Assembly: GCA_016217735.1 (NCBI GenBank)
Contig: JACRGQ010000040.1
Coordinates: 1-41,210, forward strand
Reading direction: 5' to 3'
From: Nitrospinota bacterium
GTDB taxonomy: Bacteria > Nitrospinota_A > UBA7883 > JACRGQ01
DNA: 41,210 nucleotides
Shown one piece after another: positions 3,545 to 18,209 of the stretch. The translations under genes were made by a program, and so were the position numbers. The notes beneath the pieces were generated by a model. That model made no database searches and had not been told where the DNA came from. It saw only the letters and a list, made by a program, of their open reading frames with translations. Numbering within the stretch: the first letter of the stretch is position 1; each line of letters opens with the position of its first letter.

Positions 3545-4024
3545 TCACGGGAAATAGACCATGCTTGTTTTTTTAAACTCCCGGTTGCTGTAGAGCATTC
3601 CGTAGTCCTTGATGCCGGTCGCCTCGGATATCCGTTTCGCCACCGCTTCGCAATCCTCTTTGCTCTCGCCGTGGATCATGGTGAACAGGTTGTAGGGCCA
3701 ATCGGCGTACGAGGGGCGCTCGTAGCAGTGGCTCACCTCGCGGAAGGAAGCCATGACCTCCCCCAGCCGCTGGCGGTCTTCCGCGTTTGGCACGGGCCAC
3801 ACCCCCATGCCGTTGGCGCTGAACCCGGCTTTTTGGTGGCGCAAAATGGCGCCGAAGCGGCGGATCCACTTCTTCTCTTTATAGAGGCTTATTTTTTCCA
3901 CCACTTCCTGTTCGGTGATGCCCGCCGCGTCGGCGATTTCCTTGTACGGGCGCAACGACAGCGGGATGTTCCCCTGCAGGGCCTTCATGATTTTTTTGTC
4001 AAGCGGGGTTATTTCGGGGTTCAT
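3545..4024 (-). CDS. ahbB: Siroheme decarboxylase subunit AhbB (AsnC/Lrp-like fold)
   Basis: 159-residue protein of the AhbA/AhbB/NirDLGH family. With AhbA it decarboxylates siroheme to 12,18-didecarboxysiroheme in the alternative (siroheme-dependent) heme b pathway; the related Nir proteins do this for heme d1. It has an N-terminal winged helix (LDKKIMKALQG, YKEIADAAGITEQEV) and the family block WIRRFGAILRHQKAGF, in which the conserved His lies. The Lrp-like ab-fold follows. The ATG at 4024 overlaps the ahbA stop (ATGA), with GGAGG seven bases upstream. No nirS or other heme d1 gene is in the window, so heme b synthesis is the simpler reading, in line with the heavy cytochrome load nearby. 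Confidence 0.85.
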   Translation of the reverse strand: MNPEITPLDKKIMKALQGNIPLSLRPYKEIADAAGITEQEVVEKISLYKEKKWIRRFGAILRHQKAGFSANGMGVWPVPNAEDRQRLGEVMASFREVSHCYERPSYADWPYNLFTMIHGESKEDCEAVAKRISEATGIKDYGMLYSNREFKKTSMVYFP

Positions 4025-4518
4025 TCTTCGTCCTCCGCGGCGCCGTTGGATTGCTCTTTTCCGTCGTTGAATTTGAAATCCACCTTGATCTTGAATTTTT
4101 TGATGGCCGGCATGTTGCGTATCTCGGCGCAGCCGGTGGCGGTCTCTATTTCCTTCAGTATCTGGTTGATGCGGGCCGGGGATTCGGCGATCACGGTGAA
4201 CCAGATGTTGTACGCGTGGTTGCGCTGGTAGTTGTGGGTCACTTCCACATAGCTGTTGATCTTCGCCACCACCGCGTCGATGAGCGCCGGCGGCACCTTG
4301 ACCGAGCAAAGCGTGCTGCTGAAATTAAGCCCGCGCGAATCATAGCTGGCGCCGATGCGGCGGATAATGCCGCCCTCTTTCATGGCCACCACGCGCCGGT
4401 GCGCCTCTTCTTCCGTGATTCCGGCGCCGTCCGCGATCACCTGATAGGGGTGCGGATCGATGGGAAACCCTGATTGGATGATGTTCAGGATGCTCCGGTC
4501 GATGTTGTCCAATTCCAT
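4021..4518 (-). CDS. ahbA: Siroheme decarboxylase subunit AhbA (AsnC/Lrp-like fold)
   Basis: Partner of AhbB in siroheme decarboxylation. It has an N-terminal winged helix (ELDNIDRSILNIIQSGFP) and the AhbA-type block IIRRIGASYDSRGLNFSST, followed by LCSVKVP, which separates it from the AhbB-type paralogue just downstream. I place the start at the ATG at 4518 because GGAG lies seven to eight bases upstream of it. The in-frame ATG at 4530 adds four residues (MELF) but has no good ribosome site. The length is 165 residues. It is the first gene of ahbA-ahbB-pfkB; a weak promoter is seen at 4558-4585. Confidence 0.85.
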   Translation of the reverse strand: MELDNIDRSILNIIQSGFPIDPHPYQVIADGAGITEEEAHRRVVAMKEGGIIRRIGASYDSRGLNFSSTLCSVKVPPALIDAVVAKINSYVEVTHNYQRNHAYNIWFTVIAESPARINQILKEIETATGCAEIRNMPAIKKFKIKVDFKFNDGKEQSNGAAEDEE

Positions 4519-4557
4519 AAAAAGCTCCATTCCGTCGGGTCAAAGTTGAATGCCTAT

Positions 4558-7124: not shown

Positions 7125-8216
7125 TTATTTCACGTTGGCGTGGGCGGAAGAGAGCGGGATTTTCATTTCCGTCTTTGTGATAACCACCGGCTGGTAGGAG
7201 AGGTAAACCTCCGCCGCCACCTTGGCGATATTTTTCGGCCGGATGGCGAAACGGAACGTTTCCACCCGCGATTCCCCCGGTAAAAGCCGGTTGTCGCTCG
7301 ACACCTTTTTGCCATGGAGGAACGCGTCGCCATCGGTCAGCATTTCGTTTCCCTTGCCGTCCAGAATCCGTTTGCGGTATACCTTTTTTTTCACTTCCAC
7401 CACGTTCCCGGCGGCATCCATCGCGCGCACTTCCAGCACCAGCGTCCGCGCCGGAGTGCCGGTGGGGATGGCGTGTCCCGCCCCCTCGTTCACCAGCAGC
7501 ACGTCGGCCAGCACGGCGTCGTTCATGCGCACCGGCTCTTTCGTTTCCACCCGCACCGCGCCCAGCATTTTTTCCATGCTGTGGGCGAGTGAATGGTCGT
7601 GGATCGAGTTGCGCCCGTTTTCCTTGGCGCTTCTGCCGGGCATCTCGGCCATGTGACAGTTTTGGCAGTGTACGCCGGACATCATGTATTGCGATTTTTT
7701 CCATTCGTCATAGGTGTTCCCCACCTTCGCGCCGAGGTGGTTCGTGAAGTCGTGGCAACCGGAGCAAAGCCGCGAGGTGGCGAACGCCTCGCCGTAGGCG
7801 GCGCCGTGCTCCTTGGGAGCGCTCTCCTTCAGCGCGGAACGTTTCACATCGCCCGTCTTCAGCACAAATTTCCCTTTTTTCACATCTTCCACGCTGTGGC
7901 AGAAATCACAGGTGATCCCCTCGCGGGTTATTTCGTCCTTTGCGGCATAATCGCCGGTTATCCGCGCGGTGGGGGCGTGGCAGGGAAGGCAGATTTGCGC
8001 CGCCTTGCCAGCGGTTTCGGCGTAAGCTTTCTGGTAGGCGGCCTGGAATATCGGATTGCCATAGGAGAGGGCGTGAAGCGAGTTTTTCCAGTTGTCGTAG
8101 TGATCCTGGTGGCATGCGCCGCAGGCGGCGGCGCCTTTGAAGGGCGCGGGTGTTTTTGCGAAAGCGGTGAACGGAACCGCCACCACCAGAAGCAAAAGCA
8201 TGATCCGCCGGCCCAT
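7125..8216 (-). CDS. Pentaheme c-type cytochrome, cytochrome c554/c-prime type
   Basis: 363-residue exported cytochrome with a signal peptide (LLLLVVAVPFTAFA) and five CXXCH sites in the N-terminal ~200 residues: CGACH, CLPCH, CDFCH, CSGCH and CQNCH. The opening ACGACHQDHYDNWKNSLHA matches the cytochrome c554 family pattern. After the hemes comes a beta-rich ~130-residue domain without cysteines (VLLVNEGAGHAIPTGTP), as in several multiheme redox proteins. I start at the ATG at 8216 because GGGAGG lies five bases upstream; a start at 8231 would place the ribosome site inside the gene. It is divergent from the cytochrome operon, with an extended -10 element at 8261-8269. Whether it is a reductase or an electron carrier is unknown. 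Confidence 0.88.
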   Translation of the reverse strand: MGRRIMLLLLVVAVPFTAFAKTPAPFKGAAACGACHQDHYDNWKNSLHALSYGNPIFQAAYQKAYAETAGKAAQICLPCHAPTARITGDYAAKDEITREGITCDFCHSVEDVKKGKFVLKTGDVKRSALKESAPKEHGAAYGEAFATSRLCSGCHDFTNHLGAKVGNTYDEWKKSQYMMSGVHCQNCHMAEMPGRSAKENGRNSIHDHSLAHSMEKMLGAVRVETKEPVRMNDAVLADVLLVNEGAGHAIPTGTPARTLVLEVRAMDAAGNVVEVKKKVYRKRILDGKGNEMLTDGDAFLHGKKVSSDNRLLPGESRVETFRFAIRPKNIAKVAAEVYLSYQPVVITKTEMKIPLSSAHANVK

Positions 8217-8260
8217 CGCAGCCTCCCGCAAATATAATGAACACCCGCGACTACGGCTAC

Positions 8261-8505: not shown

Positions 8506-8530
8506 TATCCTAGTAAAGGGAGGATAGGTG

Positions 8531-9757
8531 ATGGGGAGTCTCCGTTCTGCTTTTCGCATGGCGGGCTTCGGCTTTTTCTTTCTCGTCTGTCTTTTTCCCG
8601 CCGCCGCCGGAGCCGCATCCTTCTCCCTTAAATCATCTTCGCAGTTCCTCTGGGGTGAAAACTGGCTGGGCGAAGGCAACCCGGTGGTGGCCGAATACCT
8701 CAAGTTTAAATATGACGGCGAATCCAAAATGCGGTTTACCGGCTACGGCAGGGTATCGAAGGACTTCGGCGCGGGAAATCTGCGCGATACCGCCGCCAGT
8801 GGCCGCCTCTATTACGGCTATCTCGATTATTGGGGTTTTGATCTTTTTTCATTGCGGATGGGGCGGCAGTACACCAGCTATTCCGCCGGCGGAATGATAC
8901 TCGACGGGCTGACCGCCGATTTCCGCAACCTTTCGCAATATGCCGGGATGGCGTTTTCGGCCGGCGGGGATGTGCAGATGCCGATCAACTCCGATTACTC
9001 CACCGACAGGAGAATGGCGGCGGCCGCCAGCATCTATCTGAAGAACGCCGGACTCACCGAAGCCGACATCAGTTATCTGCGCAAATACGACGATAAAAAC
9101 ACCGCGCGCGAAACGGTGGGGGTGAATGTGGCCTCTTCGTTCCGCTGGGCAAAACCGTATGCCCGAGCCGCCTACGGCAATCTTACGGAGTCGTTCGACA
9201 CCATCATCGCCGGCCTTGATATTTATCCCACCGCGCGCCTGGCGATCCGGGGGGAATACTACCAGGCGTATCCCACATTTGATTCGACCTCAATCTACAG
9301 CGTTTTCGCGGTGGATCGCTACAGCGAGTACCTTTTGAAGACCGCCTATGACGTGACGGCGCGCTTTTCCGCCTTCGCCGCATACAAACGGCAGTTGTAC
9401 GAGGAGAACGACACCGCCGACGTCATTTCGCTGGGAGGGCTGTACCAGCCTACGGATGGCACGTGGGTGAATGTGGCGTTGGATAACCGGCAGGGGCGGG
9501 GGGGGCGCCTATGGGGAGGCGAAATTTATGGCGATTATAAAGCTTCAGGCGATTTCAAACTGTCGGCCGGCGTTCAGCGCGACATGTATCAGCGCGTGGA
9601 AACGGTGGACGCCTGGGCCAATGCCTCGCGCTACTGGTTGGGGATCAAGTACCGGATCAAGGAAAACAGCCAGGTGACGTTGCGGATGGAAGAGAACGTG
9701 AACGAAAACTTCAACCACCGGTTTGTGGGGAGGGCGGCCTTTGATATCAGTTTCTGA
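8531..9757 (+). CDS. Small outer-membrane beta-barrel, candidate conduit porin
   Basis: 408-residue exported protein with a signal peptide (FFFLVCLFPAAAGAAS) followed by alternating amphipathic strands rich in Tyr, Arg and Asp (for example GRLYYGYLDYWGFDLFSLRM, RMGRQYTSYSA). It ends in Phe (AAFDISF), the usual BAM insertion signal. It has no cysteines for heme. It opens an operon with a 9-heme periplasmic cytochrome 7 bp downstream and a 13-heme lipoprotein after that, so it is the likely barrel of a porin-cytochrome unit. MtrB-type barrels are much larger (about 650-700 residues). I take the ATG at 8531 (GGGAGG seven bases before); an adjacent GTG at 8528 is in frame. Confidence 0.8.
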   Translation: MGSLRSAFRMAGFGFFFLVCLFPAAAGAASFSLKSSSQFLWGENWLGEGNPVVAEYLKFKYDGESKMRFTGYGRVSKDFGAGNLRDTAASGRLYYGYLDYWGFDLFSLRMGRQYTSYSAGGMILDGLTADFRNLSQYAGMAFSAGGDVQMPINSDYSTDRRMAAAASIYLKNAGLTEADISYLRKYDDKNTARETVGVNVASSFRWAKPYARAAYGNLTESFDTIIAGLDIYPTARLAIRGEYYQAYPTFDSTSIYSVFAVDRYSEYLLKTAYDVTARFSAFAAYKRQLYEENDTADVISLGGLYQPTDGTWVNVALDNRQGRGGRLWGGEIYGDYKASGDFKLSAGVQRDMYQRVETVDAWANASRYWLGIKYRIKENSQVTLRMEENVNENFNHRFVGRAAFDISF

Positions 9758-9764
9758 GCGCGTT

Positions 9765-10529
9765 ATGCGCGCCACGGCGCTTTCCGCGGTAATGATGGGA
9801 TTCTTGTGCCTGTTCACGGGCGATGCCGGGGCTTTTGCCCACAAAAAATATGCCACGGAACCGCGCGATGTCTGCAACGAGTGCCACAAGGATATGAATG
9901 TGGCCCAAAACCACGGGCCGGTCTGGACCACCGGCCATCGCACGTATGCGTTGAAGAGCGACACCAACTGCAAAACCTGCCATGAACAGGCGTTCTGCAC
10001 CGATTGCCATTATGGCGGCGGAATCGACGCCGATCTGCACGCAAGCACCAGCGGCCCGGATTACTTGCCCAAATCGCACCGGACCGATTTCCGTGAACTT
10101 CACCCGCTCAAGGCGAAGGATGATCCCTCTTCTTGCCGGCGTTGCCACGACACCGAGCGTTTTTGCGCCGATTGCCATGCCCGGTTCAACAAAGACGACC
10201 TGATGGGCGTTTCGCACCGGAAGGGTTTTTCAGAGCTTGCGGTTCAGTTGGGCGGGGTCAAGCACAGCTCTTTCACCGCCGGACAGTGTCAGCAGTGCCA
10301 CCCCAACAGCCTGCTGCCGAAGCACGAGTGGTCGGCCCAGCACGCGCGCGAAGCGCGCCAGGATCTCGCATCGTGTCAATCATGCCATCCCGATGGCGAC
10401 GTCTGCCTGAAGTGCCACGCCGCCACCGATGGTTTAAAACGCAACCCGCATCCGAAAGATTGGGCGAAGATCGCGGAAAAAATGCGCGGCGCCAGCGGGG
10501 GCAAAACATGTGACAGGTGTCATCCTTAA
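9765..10529 (+). CDS. Nine-heme periplasmic c-type cytochrome
   Basis: 254 residues with a signal peptide (LSAVMMGFLCLFTGDAGAFA) and nine CXXCH sites: CNECH, CKTCH, CTDCH, CRRCH, CADCH, CQQCH, CQSCH, CLKCH, CDRCH. The last is almost at the C-terminus. Heme density is one per ~25 residues, typical of elongated wire-like carriers such as MtrA (ten hemes). It lies 7 bp after the barrel gene and 19 bp before a lipoprotein cytochrome, so it is the best candidate for the periplasmic, barrel-inserted member of a conduit. The start is uncertain: ATG 9765 has only a weak ribosome site, while a TTG at 9741 has GGGGAGG seven bases upstream but would overlap the barrel gene. Confidence 0.88.
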   Translation: MRATALSAVMMGFLCLFTGDAGAFAHKKYATEPRDVCNECHKDMNVAQNHGPVWTTGHRTYALKSDTNCKTCHEQAFCTDCHYGGGIDADLHASTSGPDYLPKSHRTDFRELHPLKAKDDPSSCRRCHDTERFCADCHARFNKDDLMGVSHRKGFSELAVQLGGVKHSSFTAGQCQQCHPNSLLPKHEWSAQHAREARQDLASCQSCHPDGDVCLKCHAATDGLKRNPHPKDWAKIAEKMRGASGGKTCDRCHP

Positions 10530-10536
10530 ACGCATT

Positions 10537-10543
10537 GGAGGGG
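10537..10543 (+). promoter_or_regulatory. Ribosome-binding site that sets the 13-heme gene start
   Basis: GGAGGGG lies five bases before the ATG at 10549. It settles the start there, giving a lipoprotein signal, rather than at the in-frame upstream codon at 10510, which lies inside the preceding gene. Confidence 0.7.
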
Positions 10544-10548
10544 TTGTT

Positions 10549-12960
10549 ATGAACAGGCATATGAAACGGTTGGCGGTTATGCTCATGGCGGCCGCGGTGC
10601 CGCTTCTGTTCGCGGCGTGCGGCGATGCCAAGAAGGGAAGCGCGGGAACCGCCGCCAGCGGCACGGGAGTTGCCGCGGCGGGCGCCCGAACCTGCTTCAA
10701 GTGCCATGCGGACAACAACAGTCCGGCAGGGCTTAAAAAACCGTTTGGCGACACGCAGACGGTGGCGGCCAATGGCCCGGGATGGCTGAATTCGCGCCAT
10801 GCAAACGCAAACAGTTCGCCGATATATACCGATTCAAACTGGGCATCTTCCTGTGCTTCCTGCCATGACACGAATGATGAAGGGCAGGCAATACTGAATT
10901 TCTACCTCGACACCGGGTTTGATACATTCGGGACCGTGAACAAGCCGATTGCCGGCTGCGAGTCGTGCCACGGCAACGGCGGCAACCATTATGGCGTGGG
11001 GCCGCTGGTTTATAACAATCCCGCCTCCTCCCGCTGCGGCACATGCCACAATGCCAATTATCCGCACACCACCCTCGCCCGCTACAAGGAGCAGCTTAAT
11101 ATCTATACCGACTACACGGCATCGGCGCACGCGGCGTCGATCAACGGCAAGGTGCTGGCTTCCGGCGCCACCGCCGAGGTCACCGCCATCTGCTCACGCT
11201 GCCATACCGATGAAGGCGCCAAGCGGTATATGAAGCTTTACGATGGCTTCTCCACCAGCCAATCCACTTATGCCGATGCGGGCACCGCCCTTGCCGCCAT
11301 CTCCAACATCACCGGCGCGGCGGCCGTGGAGTGCAAAACCTGCCATGACGCGCACAACCCCGGCCGCTTCCTGGCGGAGAACGGCGCGACGTTGACCACC
11401 GTCACAATTTCAGGGGCGCCCACGGTGGTGAGCACGCCGTTTGCTAATGTTGCCAACGGCACATGGTCGGCGGAATTCGCCACCTGCAATATCTGCCACC
11501 AGTTGCTCAAAGCCGATGGCACAAAAAACACCGCCGCTTACCATGATCCGGCCGTTAACAGCGCGGCCGCCACCGATGGCAGCCAAATCATCACCGATAC
11601 CCATTTCGCGACGGGCGGCAACTTTGGCGGCGCCGGAACGTCGACCAACAGCGCCGACATGACGGGGTACAGGATCGACTTCGCGGATTCGCGCGCCTGC
11701 GCCAACTGTCACAATCCCCACCAGGCCAATGTGACCATCAACCGCCAGTGGCACGCCTCGAAGCACGGGGGGGATTTCACCGCCCTCGGCGCATGGGCGC
11801 ATTACAACTGGTCGAATAAAACGACCAATCCCAGCACCGACCGGGGCGTCTGCCAGCGTTGCCATACCGCCACCGGCCTTGCCGCCTACCTCGACGCATT
11901 GAAGGCCGGCGCCACCTACACGCCGCCGTTCACGCTGGATGTGAACTTCAAACCGGATTTGCTGGCGTGCAACGGCTGCCACTCCGACAACAAAGGAACG
12001 CTGCGCGACCCCGGAGCGATTACCGTCACCTATTATGGCGACGCCCAGGCGCTGGCCGATTTCACCACCACCGGCGCCGCCCCCGTCACCTACCCGGATG
12101 CAAAAGGCTCCAACATCTGCATCTCGTGCCACACGGGACGTGAAAGCGGCAGCAGCATCAAGAGTTCCACCAGAACTTTCACTTCGGGAACGAGCTTTAT
12201 CAACTCGCATTATCTTACCGCCGGGGGAACCATTTTTGCCGAAACGGGGTACACCTACTACAGTTCCACCGGCACCTTCAACTACGCAAACCCGTCTTAC
12301 TACCGGCACGACAAGATTGGGCTGGATTCCACGCTGGCGCCGAACACCGGCGCCAACGGGCCATGCGTGGGATGCCATATGACTTCCACGGCTGATGCCG
12401 CGGCGAACTACGGATCGCACCGCTTCCTCCCGGTGCAAAAGGATTCCGCCGGCGTTCTCACCGCGATTACCACCACGGTTTGCGCCAATTGCCACAGCGG
12501 ACAATACAGCATGACCGCCACGGAGTTGGAACACCAGAACACGCTGTTCCAGAGCACCCTTGAAGCGTTGAAAGAGTTGATGGCCTCGAAAGGGTTCTAC
12601 TACTCCGCCAACTACCCGTACTGGTATTCCAATGCCGCCGGAACCACCGCCGCCACTTCATGGGGCGCAACCAAGGCCATCGGCCAGCAGAATATGGGAG
12701 CGGCGTTTAACTATAATCTGCTGAAACACGATCCCGGCGCCTACGCCCACAACCGGTACTACGCCAAGCGGCTGATTTACGATTCGATGGACTGGATGGA
12801 TGATCAAACGCTTAACCACAGCACGCCGGGATACCTGAACAGCCTGGCCGGCGGCGTAACCTATAAAGCGGATGCCATCGCGTATCTTATCGACAGCAGC
12901 GCCACGGCAACCGACCCGTTGACCGGCAGCGGCGCAACGCAGACCGGCGGCAGGCCGTAG
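10549..12960 (+). CDS. Thirteen-heme outer-membrane lipoprotein cytochrome
   Basis: 803-residue c-type cytochrome. The N-terminus MKRLAVMLMAAAVPLLFAAC ends in a lipobox-like FAAC (Phe at -3 is less usual), followed by Gly-Asp, suggesting lipid anchoring and transport to the outer membrane. Thirteen CXXCH sites follow: CFKCH, CASCH, CESCH, CGTCH, CSRCH, CKTCH, CNICH, CANCH, CQRCH, CNGCH, CISCH, CVGCH, CANCH. They are separated by Gly/Thr/Ala/Ser-rich spacers, and the last 160 residues carry no heme. Size and sparse heme spacing recall surface cytochromes such as OmcB-type or MtrC-type proteins rather than compact periplasmic carriers. Within the operon it would be the outward-facing terminal partner of the barrel. 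Its electron acceptor or donor is unknown. Confidence 0.88.
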   Translation: MNRHMKRLAVMLMAAAVPLLFAACGDAKKGSAGTAASGTGVAAAGARTCFKCHADNNSPAGLKKPFGDTQTVAANGPGWLNSRHANANSSPIYTDSNWASSCASCHDTNDEGQAILNFYLDTGFDTFGTVNKPIAGCESCHGNGGNHYGVGPLVYNNPASSRCGTCHNANYPHTTLARYKEQLNIYTDYTASAHAASINGKVLASGATAEVTAICSRCHTDEGAKRYMKLYDGFSTSQSTYADAGTALAAISNITGAAAVECKTCHDAHNPGRFLAENGATLTTVTISGAPTVVSTPFANVANGTWSAEFATCNICHQLLKADGTKNTAAYHDPAVNSAAATDGSQIITDTHFATGGNFGGAGTSTNSADMTGYRIDFADSRACANCHNPHQANVTINRQWHASKHGGDFTALGAWAHYNWSNKTTNPSTDRGVCQRCHTATGLAAYLDALKAGATYTPPFTLDVNFKPDLLACNGCHSDNKGTLRDPGAITVTYYGDAQALADFTTTGAAPVTYPDAKGSNICISCHTGRESGSSIKSSTRTFTSGTSFINSHYLTAGGTIFAETGYTYYSSTGTFNYANPSYYRHDKIGLDSTLAPNTGANGPCVGCHMTSTADAAANYGSHRFLPVQKDSAGVLTAITTTVCANCHSGQYSMTATELEHQNTLFQSTLEALKELMASKGFYYSANYPYWYSNAAGTTAATSWGATKAIGQQNMGAAFNYNLLKHDPGAYAHNRYYAKRLIYDSMDWMDDQTLNHSTPGYLNSLAGGVTYKADAIAYLIDSSATATDPLTGSGATQTGGRP

Positions 12961-13021: not shown

Positions 13022-13414
13022 ATGGTCCTGATCATGGGGCGAATTGGGATGGGGCGGGTTTTGCCGCTGGCCCTGTTAGCGGCCATCTTTTTCACTGTCA
13101 CCCCCGTTATGGCCCAGGACGATGAGGATGAAGAGGAAAAGCCGCCGGCCGATTTCGTGATGAAAGACACCGGCAAAGACGATTGGGTCATGTTGAGCCA
13201 CGCGAAGCACGAGAAAAAAGTTCCCAAATGCACATCCTGCCACCCGAAAGTTTTCTCCTCCAAGCTGGGGCGGACCAAGGAAACAAAGGGTGAGGTGAAG
13301 ATGGAGGCGATGGAAAAAGGGGAATTCTGCGGCGTCTGCCACAACGGCAAAGAAAGCTTTGACGTTAAAGTAAAAGAAGATTGCGTAAAGTGCCACAGCG
13401 TTAAGAAAGAATAG
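13022..13414 (+). CDS. Small triheme periplasmic cytochrome, c7/c3-like
   Basis: 130 residues: signal peptide (LLAAIFFTVTPVMA), an acidic stretch (DDEDEEEKPP), then three heme sites (CTSCH, CGVCH, CVKCH). A SHAKHEK motif before heme 1 and the Lys-rich surface follow the pattern of triheme cytochrome c7 proteins such as the PpcA type, where upstream His residues serve as distal ligands. Such proteins shuttle electrons across the periplasm. A near-perfect ribosome site (AAGGGAGGTG) lies four bases before the ATG, suggesting strong translation, as expected for a soluble carrier between the inner-membrane fusion encoded next and the outer-membrane unit. Confidence 0.88.
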   Translation: MVLIMGRIGMGRVLPLALLAAIFFTVTPVMAQDDEDEEEKPPADFVMKDTGKDDWVMLSHAKHEKKVPKCTSCHPKVFSSKLGRTKETKGEVKMEAMEKGEFCGVCHNGKESFDVKVKEDCVKCHSVKKE

Positions 13415-13456: not shown

Positions 13457-16207
13457 ATGAATGGCGGAATGGGTCGCATTATGGCCGGAAAAATTCGCCT
13501 TGTAATGTTGATAGCTCTCTCCTTGCTCCCGCTGTGCGCGTCCGCGGCGGAGCGTGATGCCTGCCAGGCATGCCATGCCGATAAAACCCTTGCCGTAAAA
13601 CGGGGAGATGCCGCCGTCTCCCTGTTCGTCGATCCCGCCGCGCTGGACCGCTCGGTGCATAAAGGTCTCGATTGCGCCGATTGCCACACCACCGCAAAGC
13701 TGAAAAAGGGGGTGCATAAGGAGGGCCTGGACGCGGTGGTGTGCGGCCGGTGCCACGGCGATGTGGCGATTGATTACCAGACGGGGGGGCATCACCAACA
13801 GGCGAAAGAGGGGGGCGGCGCCGTACCCGTCTGCGCTTTTTGCCACGGCAACGGGCATTCGGTACCCGCCGCGCGTGAACGGATGGCGCGCGTTCACCGC
13901 GCCAACCTGGCGGAGCTTTGCGGCGGTTGCCATAGCGAAGGAAAAGCGCCGCATACATGGCGAAAGCCCGGCGGCGTGGAGCGGAACTTCAGCGATGCGA
14001 TCCACGGACGCGCGTTTTATGCCAAAGGGCTGTTGGCCGCCCCCACCTGCGCCGATTGTCACGAAAGCCATCGCGTGCTTCCCGCCACCAATCGTCTTTC
14101 GTCGGTCGCCCCGCACAATCAACCCGCCACATGCGAACGCTGCCATGAAGGGATGGGGAAGCGCCACGCGGGAATCCTCAAAAGCGCGGCGGGCGCAAAA
14201 GGGCGGATCGCCTGCGCCACCTGCCACCCGGTACACCGGCGGACGCCCGTCATGGCCGCGCGCGCGGGAAAAAGCGAGGCCGAGTGCCTGAAATGTCACG
14301 CCGCACCCATTGCCGGGACGGCCAAACCAGTCGTCGCCGCCGACACGGCGGAGCTTGCCGCATCGGTGCATGCCGGCATCCCCTGCATCACCTGTCATAC
14401 CGGCGCTTTGGCAAAAAAGGGGAAACATGACATCCGCATGGAGAACGTGGCATGCGCCAACTGCCACGCCCGCTTTGCGGATGAATATGAACAGAGCACC
14501 CACGGCAGGCTCCGCGCGGCGGGAAACGGGAACGCGCCATACTGCACCGATTGCCACGGCAGCCACGGCATCAAAAATCACCGCGATGTGACGGCGGCCA
14601 CGTATCACAACGCCATCCCAAAACTCTGCGGCAGATGCCACGGTGGCGGCAAAGGCGGGAAGCCGTATCCGGCGGAGTACGACTATACCCGGAGCGTGCA
14701 TGGCAAAGGGGTGGAACTGAAAGGATTGACCGTCGCGGCGGTCTGCACCGATTGCCACAGCAGTCATTTGATAGTGAACAAAGGGGATCCGCGCTCCGCG
14801 GTACACCGCGACAATGTCACCGCCACCTGCGCCGATTGCCACCGTGGCATTTACACGGCCTATGTAAAGGGTGTTCATTATTCGGAAGAACCGGGGAAAA
14901 TGGCCGGCCGCCCCACCTGCGTTGATTGCCACACCGCCCACAGGATCGGCGAAACCGGAAAAAGCGAGTTCATGGTGAGCGTGACCGGCGCATGTGGAAA
15001 CTGCCACAAGGATCTGGCCCAAAAATATCTCTCCTCCATGCATGGAAAAACCTGGCGGCTCGGCTATATGAAATCGGCGAAATGCGCCGATTGCCACAAC
15101 CCGCACATGACCCTCGCGGTGGACGATCCGGCAAGCGAAGTTGGCCCGGCGAAACGGCTGGAAACCTGCCGCAAATGCCATCCTTCGGCGGAGCCGCGGT
15201 TCACCTCTTTTATCGCGCACAGCGATCCGCATGACCGCGGGCGGTATCCCGCGCTGTTTTGGACGAATATGTTCATGATGGCGCTGCTTGCCGGCGTGTT
15301 CGGATTTTTTGGGCTGCACACGCTGGCGTGGCTGCCGCGCGCGCTCAGGCATGTCCGGTTGCATGGCCAGTCTCCGCGCCGCGCCGATAAATACTTTATC
15401 CGCTTCACCCTGGCGCAACGGATCACCCACCTCTTTGTCATCGTCAGTTTCCTGCTGCTTGCGGCCACCGGGCTTATGCTCAAGTTCTCGGAAACCGGCT
15501 GGGCGCGGGCGCTGGCGGTACTGTTCGGCGGCGTGGCGGGAGCGGGGCTTTTGCACCGCATCGGCGCGGTGGTGACCTTCGGTTATTTTTTCTACCACAT
15601 CGGCGAGGTGTTCTTGCGCTGGCGGCGGAGCGGCATGGGGGCCAAGGCGTTCTTTTTAGGCAAGGACTCGATGGCGCCGAACATGGATGACGTGCGCGAT
15701 TTCATCGCGACGGTGAAATGGTCCGTCGGCCAGGGGCCGCGGCCGGTCTACGACCGCTGGACCTACTGGGAAAAGTTCGACTATTTCGCCATCTTCTGGG
15801 GCGTGCCGGTGATCGGCCTCTCCGGCCTTATGCTCTGGTTCCCCGAATTGTTCACCTGGTTCCTGCCGGGATGGGCAATCAACATAGCCGCGATTATCCA
15901 TGGCGAAGAAGCGCTTTTGGCGGTAGGCTTTATTTTCACCATCCACTTTTTCAATACGGATCTCAGGCCCGACAGCTTCCCTGTCGATACCGTCATTTTC
16001 TCCGGCCGGATGACGATGGAGCGGTTTATGGAAGAACGCGGCCGCGAATACGAGCGGCGCCGCGCGGCGGGGGAGCTTGATGCGTTCATTACCGATGAAC
16101 AGTTGCCAAGACCGTATGAACGGGCCATTTTCTTTTTCGGCATGATGTTCCTTTTGACCGGACTCTTGCTTGTGGCGCTGATAATCTTCTCGGCCATCTT
16201 CGGCTGA
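13457..16207 (+). CDS. Nineteen-heme cytochrome c fused to a cytochrome b quinol module
   Basis: 916-residue inner-membrane fusion. A signal sequence ([18 protein letters not shown]) precedes a ~560-residue periplasmic domain with nineteen CXXCH sites (CQACH first, CRKCH last). From about residue 598 there are about six membrane helices of the FdnI/HydC/b561 kind, with paired His candidates for heme b: QRITHLF, LLHRIG, FFYHIGE, AIIHGEE, FTIHFFN. This order matches CbcL-like proteins, which oxidise menaquinol and pass electrons to periplasmic cytochromes, but those have far fewer c hemes. It would therefore be the quinone-linked entry (or exit) of the conduit. Three starts are in frame (13457, 13469, 13481), none with a good ribosome site; ATG 13481 gives the tightest signal peptide. 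The end converges on the NapC-like gene. Confidence 0.88.
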
Positions 16208-16223
16208 TGCCGGTCAATACATC

Positions 16224-18209
16224 TTATTGCGCTACGGGAGCTTCCGGCGGCGGGGCGATTCCGTCAAGCTTCTTCTTGATATCCTTGGCGGCGCGTTTGA
16301 TCGGCTTTGGATTGTGCATGCCGTGGCTGCCGTCGTTTACGATGCCCAGGACGAACGCCTGGGCGTTTTCAACGGCCAGTTTCTGATCCGCTGACAGGTT
16401 CATTTTTCCGGCGCGGGCGGTGCCGGCGCGCAACTCATCGATGAGGGCGTCCATGTCTTTCACCCCCTTTTTCATTTTTTCCGCGTAGGCGGGATCTTTG
16501 TGGCAAGCTGCGCAATCCTCCGGCGTCACGTTTTTGCCGTTCATCAGGTGGCACCTGGTGCAGGGGAAATCGAGGCTCTTCATGCTCGGCTCATCCACCG
16601 CGTTCCATCGTCCCTGAATGATGTCGTTTTGCGGCGTATGGCACTCCTCGCATTTCTTCGTGATTTTTTTCCGGTGATGGCACGGGGCGCATCCCGCCTT
16701 GTCGATGGTCAGTTCGGCATGTTTCACCGCGATGCTGTGGCACCGCTGGCATTCAAACCCGGCTCCGGCGTGGGTCTTGTGATTGAACGGCAGGCCGGCA
16801 TACAGCGGGGCGGCCTTGTCCAGGTAGAAGTGGCAGGTGAGGCAATCGGCGTTTGGCTTCCGTTCCTTTATGCCGGCCGGCGGCAGGGCAAGTGAAACTT
16901 TTGCCTGTGTGCCGATATCCGCGAGGGAGGCCCGCGCCGCTTCCAGTATCTCGTTCGCATAACGGACGTTATGCACGATGTTGCCGTGCGCGACGATGTC
17001 CAGGTTTCCGCGCAGGGCGGCCAATTTTGTTTTTGCCCCTTTGCCGGCCAAGTGTCCCTCCAGTTCAGCCGCCGCGTTTTTCAGCGCGGCGACACGCTCA
17101 TCGGCGGCGCGTTGCCACGTTTTGATAAGTTTGCTAAAGCCCCGTCCGTGGCAGGTGTCGCAGCTTTTGCCGCTGGCATAGTAGGAGCCGGGGGCTTTTT
17201 CACCCGCAACCGTCAGGCCGTGGGAGATGTGGCAACCCCGGCAGTTCAGCCCGATTTGAAACATCCGGTTCGGCAAGGAAGGAACGCCGCTGGCCCCTTC
17301 GCCGGTGAAAAGGGTAATCGTGGCGTTGTGGTGCGACGGATGGCAGGTTTGGCAGTCCGCCGCCGTTTTGGCGTCGCCGGGGCGGAGCTTGTGTTCGATG
17401 GCAAGGTGGCACCGCATACATTCGATCTTGTTTTCGGAAATATGCGTTTGGTGCATAAGGCCGGTGTCGCTGAACTGGTTGAGCCGTTCGCTATCCCAGT
17501 GGCACGCGAAACAGTTTTGCTTGGCGACGGGGCCGGTTCCCATAACGGTGTGGCTGTGGCAGGTCTGGCAGGCCAGCTTCTCGCGCAGCACGATACCGTG
17601 GTCATAGCGCAGCTCACCGGCCTTCGAGCGGCGCGCCATCACATCGCGGGCGTGGCAGACGGTGCATTCGGCCTGTTTCGGCGTGCCGCCCCCTTCTTCC
17701 GTTTTAAAGTGGCAGAGATAACAGGCGGTCGCCGTGACGGTGATATGCAGTCCCTGCACGATCTGCGAGTGGCAACTGGTGCAGCGGAGTTTCTTTCCCC
17801 GTTTCAAATCTCCCAGGTGCGGGACGTGGTCGAACACCACTCCTTCTTTGTAGTTGACCCTCCCCTTGAGGAGGCGCGTTTCGTGACAGCCGGTCCGGAG
17901 GCAGCTTTCATCGGGTATCTCGGCCCACGGGCGCGATTTTTTATAGGTGAGCGAGGTGTATTTCACCAATTGCACCAAGCCGTTCAGTTTGCCGGCGATG
18001 GCCCCTTTAAGGCCGGGGGCGAAGTGGCATTCGATGCATTCGACCTTTTTGTGCGAGGAGTTCCGCCAACTGTCGTAAAACGGCTGCATGTAGTGGCATG
18101 TAACGCAGAAGCTGGAGCGGGAAGTGAAAACAGCCAAGCCGGCGGTGAGGATCGCAAGACCGAAAAGCGAAAACGCGGCGATGGCGAGAGCTCGTTTGAG
18201 CTTACCCAT
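16224..18209 (-). CDS. NapC/NrfH-like anchored cytochrome with 18 heme sites
   Basis: 661 residues. An N-terminal anchor helix (about 8-30) leads into a NapC/NrfH-type start, [14 protein letters not shown], where the CXXCHxM pattern is that of quinol-oxidising NrfH-like proteins, then CIECH. The third site is CLRTGC-H, a CX4CH spacing. Fifteen more CXXCH sites follow (CTSCH to CAACH). Two helical segments with a His-Asn motif, [12 protein letters not shown] (about 415) and [11 protein letters not shown] (near the C-terminus), resemble the C-terminal helices of NrfA-like multiheme enzymes and suggest an internal duplication. It is probably a membrane-tethered periplasmic quinol dehydrogenase or reductase. 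The gene converges with the 19-heme fusion gene (16-bp gap). Its promoter is the extended -10 at 18245-18253. Confidence 0.88.

Follow-up and report, generated by a model that had tools for sequence, protein, structure and literature searches.

What does a protein do that begins like a small quinol dehydrogenase of the NapC/NrfH type yet continues for 661 residues and carries 18 heme sites? The complete gene for such a protein lies on the minus strand at 16224..18209 of the 41,210-nucleotide stretch of Nitrospinota DNA analysed here (the window), as judged from its open reading frame and its conservation in relatives, and GGGGAAGG, which resembles a ribosome site, is found upstream of its start. 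The protein is probably a quinol dehydrogenase of the inner membrane, a member of the NapC/NrfH superfamily that has grown into a long heme wire in the periplasm and serves extracellular electron transfer. The length, the 18 heme sites, the unusual third site CLRTGCH and the two HN motifs of the original prediction are all present, on the minus strand. Seventeen of the sites are CXXCH and one is CX4CH by motif count, whereas shuffling the same residues 2000 times gave a mean of 0.11 CXXCH motifs and a maximum of 2. Fourteen full-length relatives, with identities down to 37-45%, keep the reading frame, each of the 18 heme sites and the two HN motifs. Among all 19-residue hydropathy windows, the only strongly hydrophobic one covers residues 8-28, and this sole peak falls within the N-terminal membrane helix (residues 2-29; 18123..18206, minus strand), which is a helix of high pLDDT (H2-29) in both AF2 models. 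The model used was built from 41 sequences and is of moderate quality (pLDDT 76, pTM 0.52); it replaced a first model built from 16 sequences with a pLDDT of 55.

The third heme site, CLRTGCH (17883..17903, minus strand), is identified by its motif and by the alignments of relatives. Its CX4CH spacing is invariant in the 14 full-length relatives. The distant relatives L061, L074 and L075 have CXXCH instead, so the two motifs are interchangeable at heme 3 in evolution. In class III cytochromes, CX4CH is standard. The genome encodes an ordinary system I CcmF, and system II ResB was not found in it. The earlier idea that this site requires tolerant cytochrome maturation was thus overdrawn, and no special maturation need be invoked. 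Among the short Zixibacteria forms (L055-L071), heme 13 has a CX3CH motif and heme 3 is mostly CX4CH.

Where would electrons enter such a chain? The first 115 residues, with hemes 1-3 (17865..18209, minus strand), form an NrfH-like head according to the NrfH profile, Foldseek and Pfam. The Pfam Cytochrom_NNT model (PF03264) is matched with 28.6 bits against a gathering score of 24.1, and the N-terminal anchor together with the first heme motifs thereby scores above the cut-off of the NapC/NirT/NrfH superfamily. The family profile finds NrfH (2j7a_C) in the PDB with E-values of 8.5e-10 and 1.7e-13, and Foldseek matches the AF2 model to NrfH with a probability of 1.00 and a TM-score of 0.51 on the target. 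The NapC/NrfH-type anchor and CVTCHYM start that were recognized originally are therefore borne out by domain, profile and fold. Quinol oxidation is the putative activity of this head. Lys74 (17988..17990, minus strand) is a candidate for the quinol pocket, as it lies 12 residues past the His of the heme-2 CXXCH, which is the spacing of NrfH Lys82. It is invariant in alignment A1 and present in 23 of 41 sequences in alignment A2, and so is not universal. The heme 1 site, CVTCHYM (18087..18107, minus strand), has the CXXCHXM signature of NrfH, where the Met of this motif ligates heme 1, as reviewed (PMC8840924). The corresponding Met41 occurs in 39 of the 41 relatives and is the predicted ligand of the quinol-side heme. 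Membership in NrfH proper was considered and rejected: the protein scores 47.9 bits with TIGR03153 against an equivalog cut-off of 134.2 and has 18 hemes, not four. No nrfA gene lies beside the 18-heme gene in the window.

Where the electrons might go is suggested by the neighbouring genes. On the plus strand, a presumed porin (8528-9757; the assignment is inferred and there is no Pfam match) is followed by a 9-heme cytochrome (9723-10529) and a 13-heme cytochrome with a lipoprotein-like LLFAAC start (10510-12960). Together these three genes (8528..12960) presumably encode an outer-membrane porin-cytochrome conduit. They are followed by a triheme c7 cytochrome (13022..13414, plus strand; Pfam Cytochrome_C7, E 4.5e-15), a candidate acceptor. 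The order of the porin, 9-heme, 13-heme and c7 genes is retained in L019 and L020. Tail-to-tail with the 18-heme gene is the gene for a 916-residue protein (13457..16207, plus strand) with 19 CXXCH motifs and a C-terminal cytochrome-b membrane part, a layout like that of CbcL/MtoC/MtrH. Homologs of this gene adjoin the loci of most relatives, in several lineages and phyla and in varying orientation. However, a search of the related genome G004 (87% complete) at E <= 1e-20 gave no cytochrome-b gene, and there the c7 gene and conduit are still adjacent to the 18-heme gene, which suggests that the 18-heme wire can serve the conduit alone.

Quinol would be oxidised at the head, at the heme 1 ligated by Met41, and electrons would then pass through three c7-type repeats and two NrfA/OcwA-type terminal modules containing the 17 further hemes. 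Periplasmic or outer-membrane cytochromes, here the c7 protein and the conduit of the neighbouring genes, would receive them from the wire, and the end result would be outward extracellular electron transfer. Both the outward direction and the identity of these partners are proposals. Could the same wire run inwards, so that electrons from extracellular donors such as Fe(II) or a partner cell reduce quinone? The direction of electrons is not fixed by sequence: proteins of the CbcL/MtoC/MtrH family, whose layout the neighbour at 13457-16207 has, are implicated in both directions (PMC6295460), while the NapC/NirT proteins tested are quinol oxidases in vivo, even ImoA of an iron oxidiser (PMC9600427). 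An inward flow is rather unlikely.

It is about equally doubtful that the protein is a CymA-like hub that feeds periplasmic reductases generally and has no special link to an outer-membrane conduit. The porin-cytochrome cluster was seen beside the 18-heme gene only in the closest relatives of the window, and the partners differ in Zixibacteria. There the genes conserved next to it encode other multiheme proteins of the inner membrane, and homologs of the porin-cytochrome genes of the window were not found beside the Zixibacteria relatives, which favours a hub. Against it, the porin-cytochrome set that adjoins the gene in the genus of the window is complete, and one relative is fused to a c7 protein. 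The latter is a short 15-heme protein (L008, 1189-2835, minus strand) whose last domain is a triheme c7 homolog of 13022-13414, presumably a natural fusion of the dehydrogenase with its acceptor.

Several other genes near these loci may be mentioned. A pentaheme cytochrome c554-like protein is encoded in the window at 7125-8231 (minus strand), and a gene 48% identical to it adjoins the short relative in L008. Two adjacent AsnC-type proteins are encoded at 3545-4530 (minus strand), and the one tested (4024-4530) matches siroheme-decarboxylase NirDL-like models; this match suggests siroheme-based heme synthesis. In Zixibacteria L021, L025, L026, L027 and L030 the 18-heme gene is followed by one for an 8-heme protein that has a membrane helix at its N-terminus, and in L021 the frame of this second gene is split in two. 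Several of the short forms L055-L071 have cytochrome-b multiheme genes on both flanks. A second NapC-like multiheme gene, with an open frame of 487 residues, occurs in the same genome in L002/L081 (G000, contig C45).

Is the long body behind the head a wire or an enzyme? A single-sequence search of the PDB gave weak matches, including a chance one to a viral hemagglutinin, and profiles were used instead. When residues 189-445 and 446-661 were compared with hhalign, they were similar with a probability of 99.5 and an E-value of 7e-23, as the original prediction of a duplicated block had implied. Heme spacing does not account for this duplication, which is real: its score is 152, whereas 40 permutations with the heme-motif columns held fixed reached no more than 60, and the similarity persists after Cys is masked. 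Each duplicated unit can be divided further. Three c7-type repeats were recognized on the minus strand. Repeat a (residues 120-200, hemes 4-6; 17610..17852) matches Pfam Cytochrome_C7 at residues 124-186 and aligns by hhalign with the other two (E 6e-10 to repeat b, 1e-7 to repeat c). Repeat b (residues 201-299, or about 195-300, hemes 7-10; 17313..17609) was found by comparing segment profiles, and repeat c (residues 446-535, hemes 13-16; 16605..16874) by its hhalign match to repeat b (E 2.6e-10).

The two units end in terminal modules, each with two hemes, three helices and an HN motif. Module 1 (residues 300-445, hemes 11-12; 16875..17312, minus strand) matches residues 359-497 of OcwA (6i5b) with an E-value of 1.6e-15, module 2 (residues 536-661, hemes 17-18; 16227..16604, minus strand) matches OcwA with 1.1e-10, and the two match each other with E-values of 1.9e-16 to 2e-15. 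The Carboxydothermus undecaheme protein 6qvm is found with 4e-4 by the module 1 profile and 4.7e-11 by the module 2 profile, and MccA with 0.08 and 9.7e-9, respectively; matches to NrfA in the module and family profile searches are weaker than those to OcwA. Foldseek places OcwA, MccA, octaheme nitrite reductases and NrfA at its top ranks, none with an E-value below 0.001. The three C-terminal helices of OcwA are those of the NrfA family (PMC6703420). The HN helices are marked by His413-Asn414 (16968..16973, minus strand), which is invariant, and by His632-Asn633 (16311..16316, minus strand), seen in the alignments of relatives. The conservation of the distal His413 and His632, together with two hemes and a long-helix bundle, identifies the C-terminal module of the NrfA/OcwA superfamily in both places. 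The description of NrfA-like C-termini was thus right, as both tails separately match OcwA, 6qvm and MccA. Homology to OcwA over the whole five-heme NrfA core, considered from a profile match at residues 218-434, was rejected. The sub-profile of residues 222-308 (hemes 8-10) gave it no support; this segment matches c7-like 8k9e and ActA (6btm) of alternative complex III, and OcwA and NrfA were absent among its PDB matches. What is matched corresponds to the last two hemes of NrfA (4-5) and their helices, without the active-site heme 1.

The conserved residues that could ligate the hemes were also counted. Across the 41 relatives, 14 His residues outside the heme motifs are conserved (53, 128, 131, 155, 204, 253, 256, 273, 294, 413, 477, 480, 497 and 632), and His512, conserved in the longer forms only, is the 15th ligand His. 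Only three Met residues are conserved in the whole protein (41, 316 and 543), and all three are at predicted ligand sites. Met316 (17262..17264, minus strand), the predicted distal ligand of heme 12, is Met in 40 of 41 sequences and His in L061, a 15-heme Zixibacteria form. Met543 (16581..16583, minus strand), the predicted distal ligand of heme 18, is invariant in alignment A5. Each lies 11 residues ahead of a CXXCH His, the position of the Met in SVMYKAGVTCVDCH of OcwA. Hemes 12 and 18 are predicted to be His/Met-ligated because Met316 and Met543 align with the OcwA Met and the last heme of OcwA (heme 9) has His/Met coordination (PMC6703420); heme 1 is predicted to have NrfH-type Met ligation. 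The close 18-heme members have 18 ligands (15 His and 3 Met) for 18 hemes. In the distant 18-heme forms L050, L051, L074 and L075 one Met each is missing at the aligned position. Nearly all of the 15-heme Zixibacteria forms keep 15 ligands, and His512, Met543 and His632 are gone together with hemes 16-18. His330 was also tried as a ligand; it is present in 21 of 41 sequences, with no conservation outside the close family, and without it the number of ligands equals the number of hemes. The predicted ligands would appear to suffice for every heme, with none left vacant by count.

It is therefore highly improbable that the NrfA-type halves are catalytic, with open hemes that reduce nitrite, hydroxylamine, sulfite or another substrate and a quinol dehydrogenase built in. 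In favour of this, NrfA, MccA and OcwA have homologous terminal modules, OcwA itself slowly reduces nitrite (PMC6703420), and His294, which in the alignment may equal HH380/381 of OcwA, might be placed next to an open heme 8 in the way that this His pair stands above open heme 5. Against it, the 661-residue protein has no CXXCK and no match to PF02335 (NrfA) at E 0.001, its likeness takes in no more of NrfA than hemes 4-5 and their helices, its hemes 8-10 segment is unlike OcwA and NrfA, conserved predicted ligands are enough for all hemes, and OcwA, the closest solved relative, is a cell-surface electron-transfer protein. The protein looks like a wire and not like an enzyme that has a substrate site of its own. 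The original prediction, a quinol dehydrogenase fused with a duplicated catalytic-type cytochrome in one chain, holds for the NrfH-type head, the similar halves and the NrfA-superfamily fold of the tails, and three hemes are predicted to be Met-ligated, but the term catalytic-type finds no support, as neither a Lys-ligated heme (no CXXCK) nor, by ligand count, an open one was found.

The same architecture recurs in several uncultured phyla. Relatives that are 82-87% identical belong to the same genus and those at 44% to another genus of the same family, and full-length relatives of about 37-40% identity occur in MAGs labelled Zixibacteria, Calditrichota, KSB1 and Ignavibacteriales. Matches at E <= 1e-40 were found in 7 of 24 genomes of the phylum of the window and, among the genomes sampled, in 33 of 132 Zixibacteria, 6 of 82 Calditrichota/KSB1 and 2 of 198 Ignavibacteriota. 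The homologs have 11, 15, 18 or 21 hemes. In an unrooted IQ-TREE tree of the shared N-terminal part, some branches of which are long, the 15-heme Zixibacteria forms group together with good support and their sisters have 18 hemes. This is consistent with an origin of the 15-heme forms by module loss from the 18-heme form. Why would a single chain need so many hemes? Tentatively, one 18-heme chain could span much or all of the periplasm and connect the quinol pool to the outer-membrane conduit without diffusing shuttles. The two His/Met hemes, one per duplicated unit, would be higher-potential steps, and the family would tune its length by gaining and losing heme modules.

In the open-access literature searched, no description of an 18-heme NapC-type protein with duplicated NrfA/OcwA-type modules was found, and the family is apparently undescribed. 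The present layout is not among the three quinol oxidase families for extracellular electron transfer in a 2018 survey (CymA, ImcH, CbcL). For Nitrospinota-like, Zixibacteria, Calditrichota/KSB1 and Ignavibacteriota genomes, in which pathways of extracellular electron transfer are difficult to annotate, it supplies a candidate point of entry. The protein also illustrates clearly how long multiheme cytochromes are built by adding and removing modules, and it comes with a specific, testable ligand prediction.

How does the protein compare with known systems? The NapC/NirT quinol dehydrogenases have 4-5 hemes compared with 18 here. NrfH (PDB 2j7a/2vr0) shares the N-terminal membrane helix, the CXXCHXM heme 1 and the fold of the head; however, its hemes number 4 and its partner NrfA is a separate protein, whereas 18 hemes are in one chain here. 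CbcL/MtoC/MtrH is by layout (multiheme plus cytochrome b) the family of the adjacent gene, and the 18-heme protein lacks a cytochrome b part. Geobacter ImcH (PMC6295460) is likewise a multiheme relative of NapC; it oxidises quinol at the inner membrane for extracellular electron transfer, a role that is putative here. Membership in ImcH was rejected, as ImcH proteins mostly have 3 membrane helices, CX3CH and 6-10 hemes (PMC6295460) and the protein studied here has 1 helix, no CX3CH and 18 hemes. ImdcA of Thermincola ferriacetica (PMC7911101), compared by description only and not by sequence, is also an inner-membrane-anchored multiheme protein with a proposed role in quinol oxidation for extracellular electron transfer; it has 10 hemes rather than 18, one of them possibly high-spin (PMC7911101). 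The NrfA/MccA/octaheme nitrite reductase superfamily shares the fold of the terminal module, but here there is neither the CXXCK present in most NrfA nor a match to the active-site heme region. OcwA, the cell-surface nonaheme cytochrome of Thermincola potens (PDB 6i5b, PMC6703420), shares the Met position, the two hemes, the three-helix bundle and the HN motif of the terminal module. OcwA is extracellular and two of its 9 hemes are open, whereas here the module is duplicated, a membrane quinol head is attached and ligands are predicted for all hemes.
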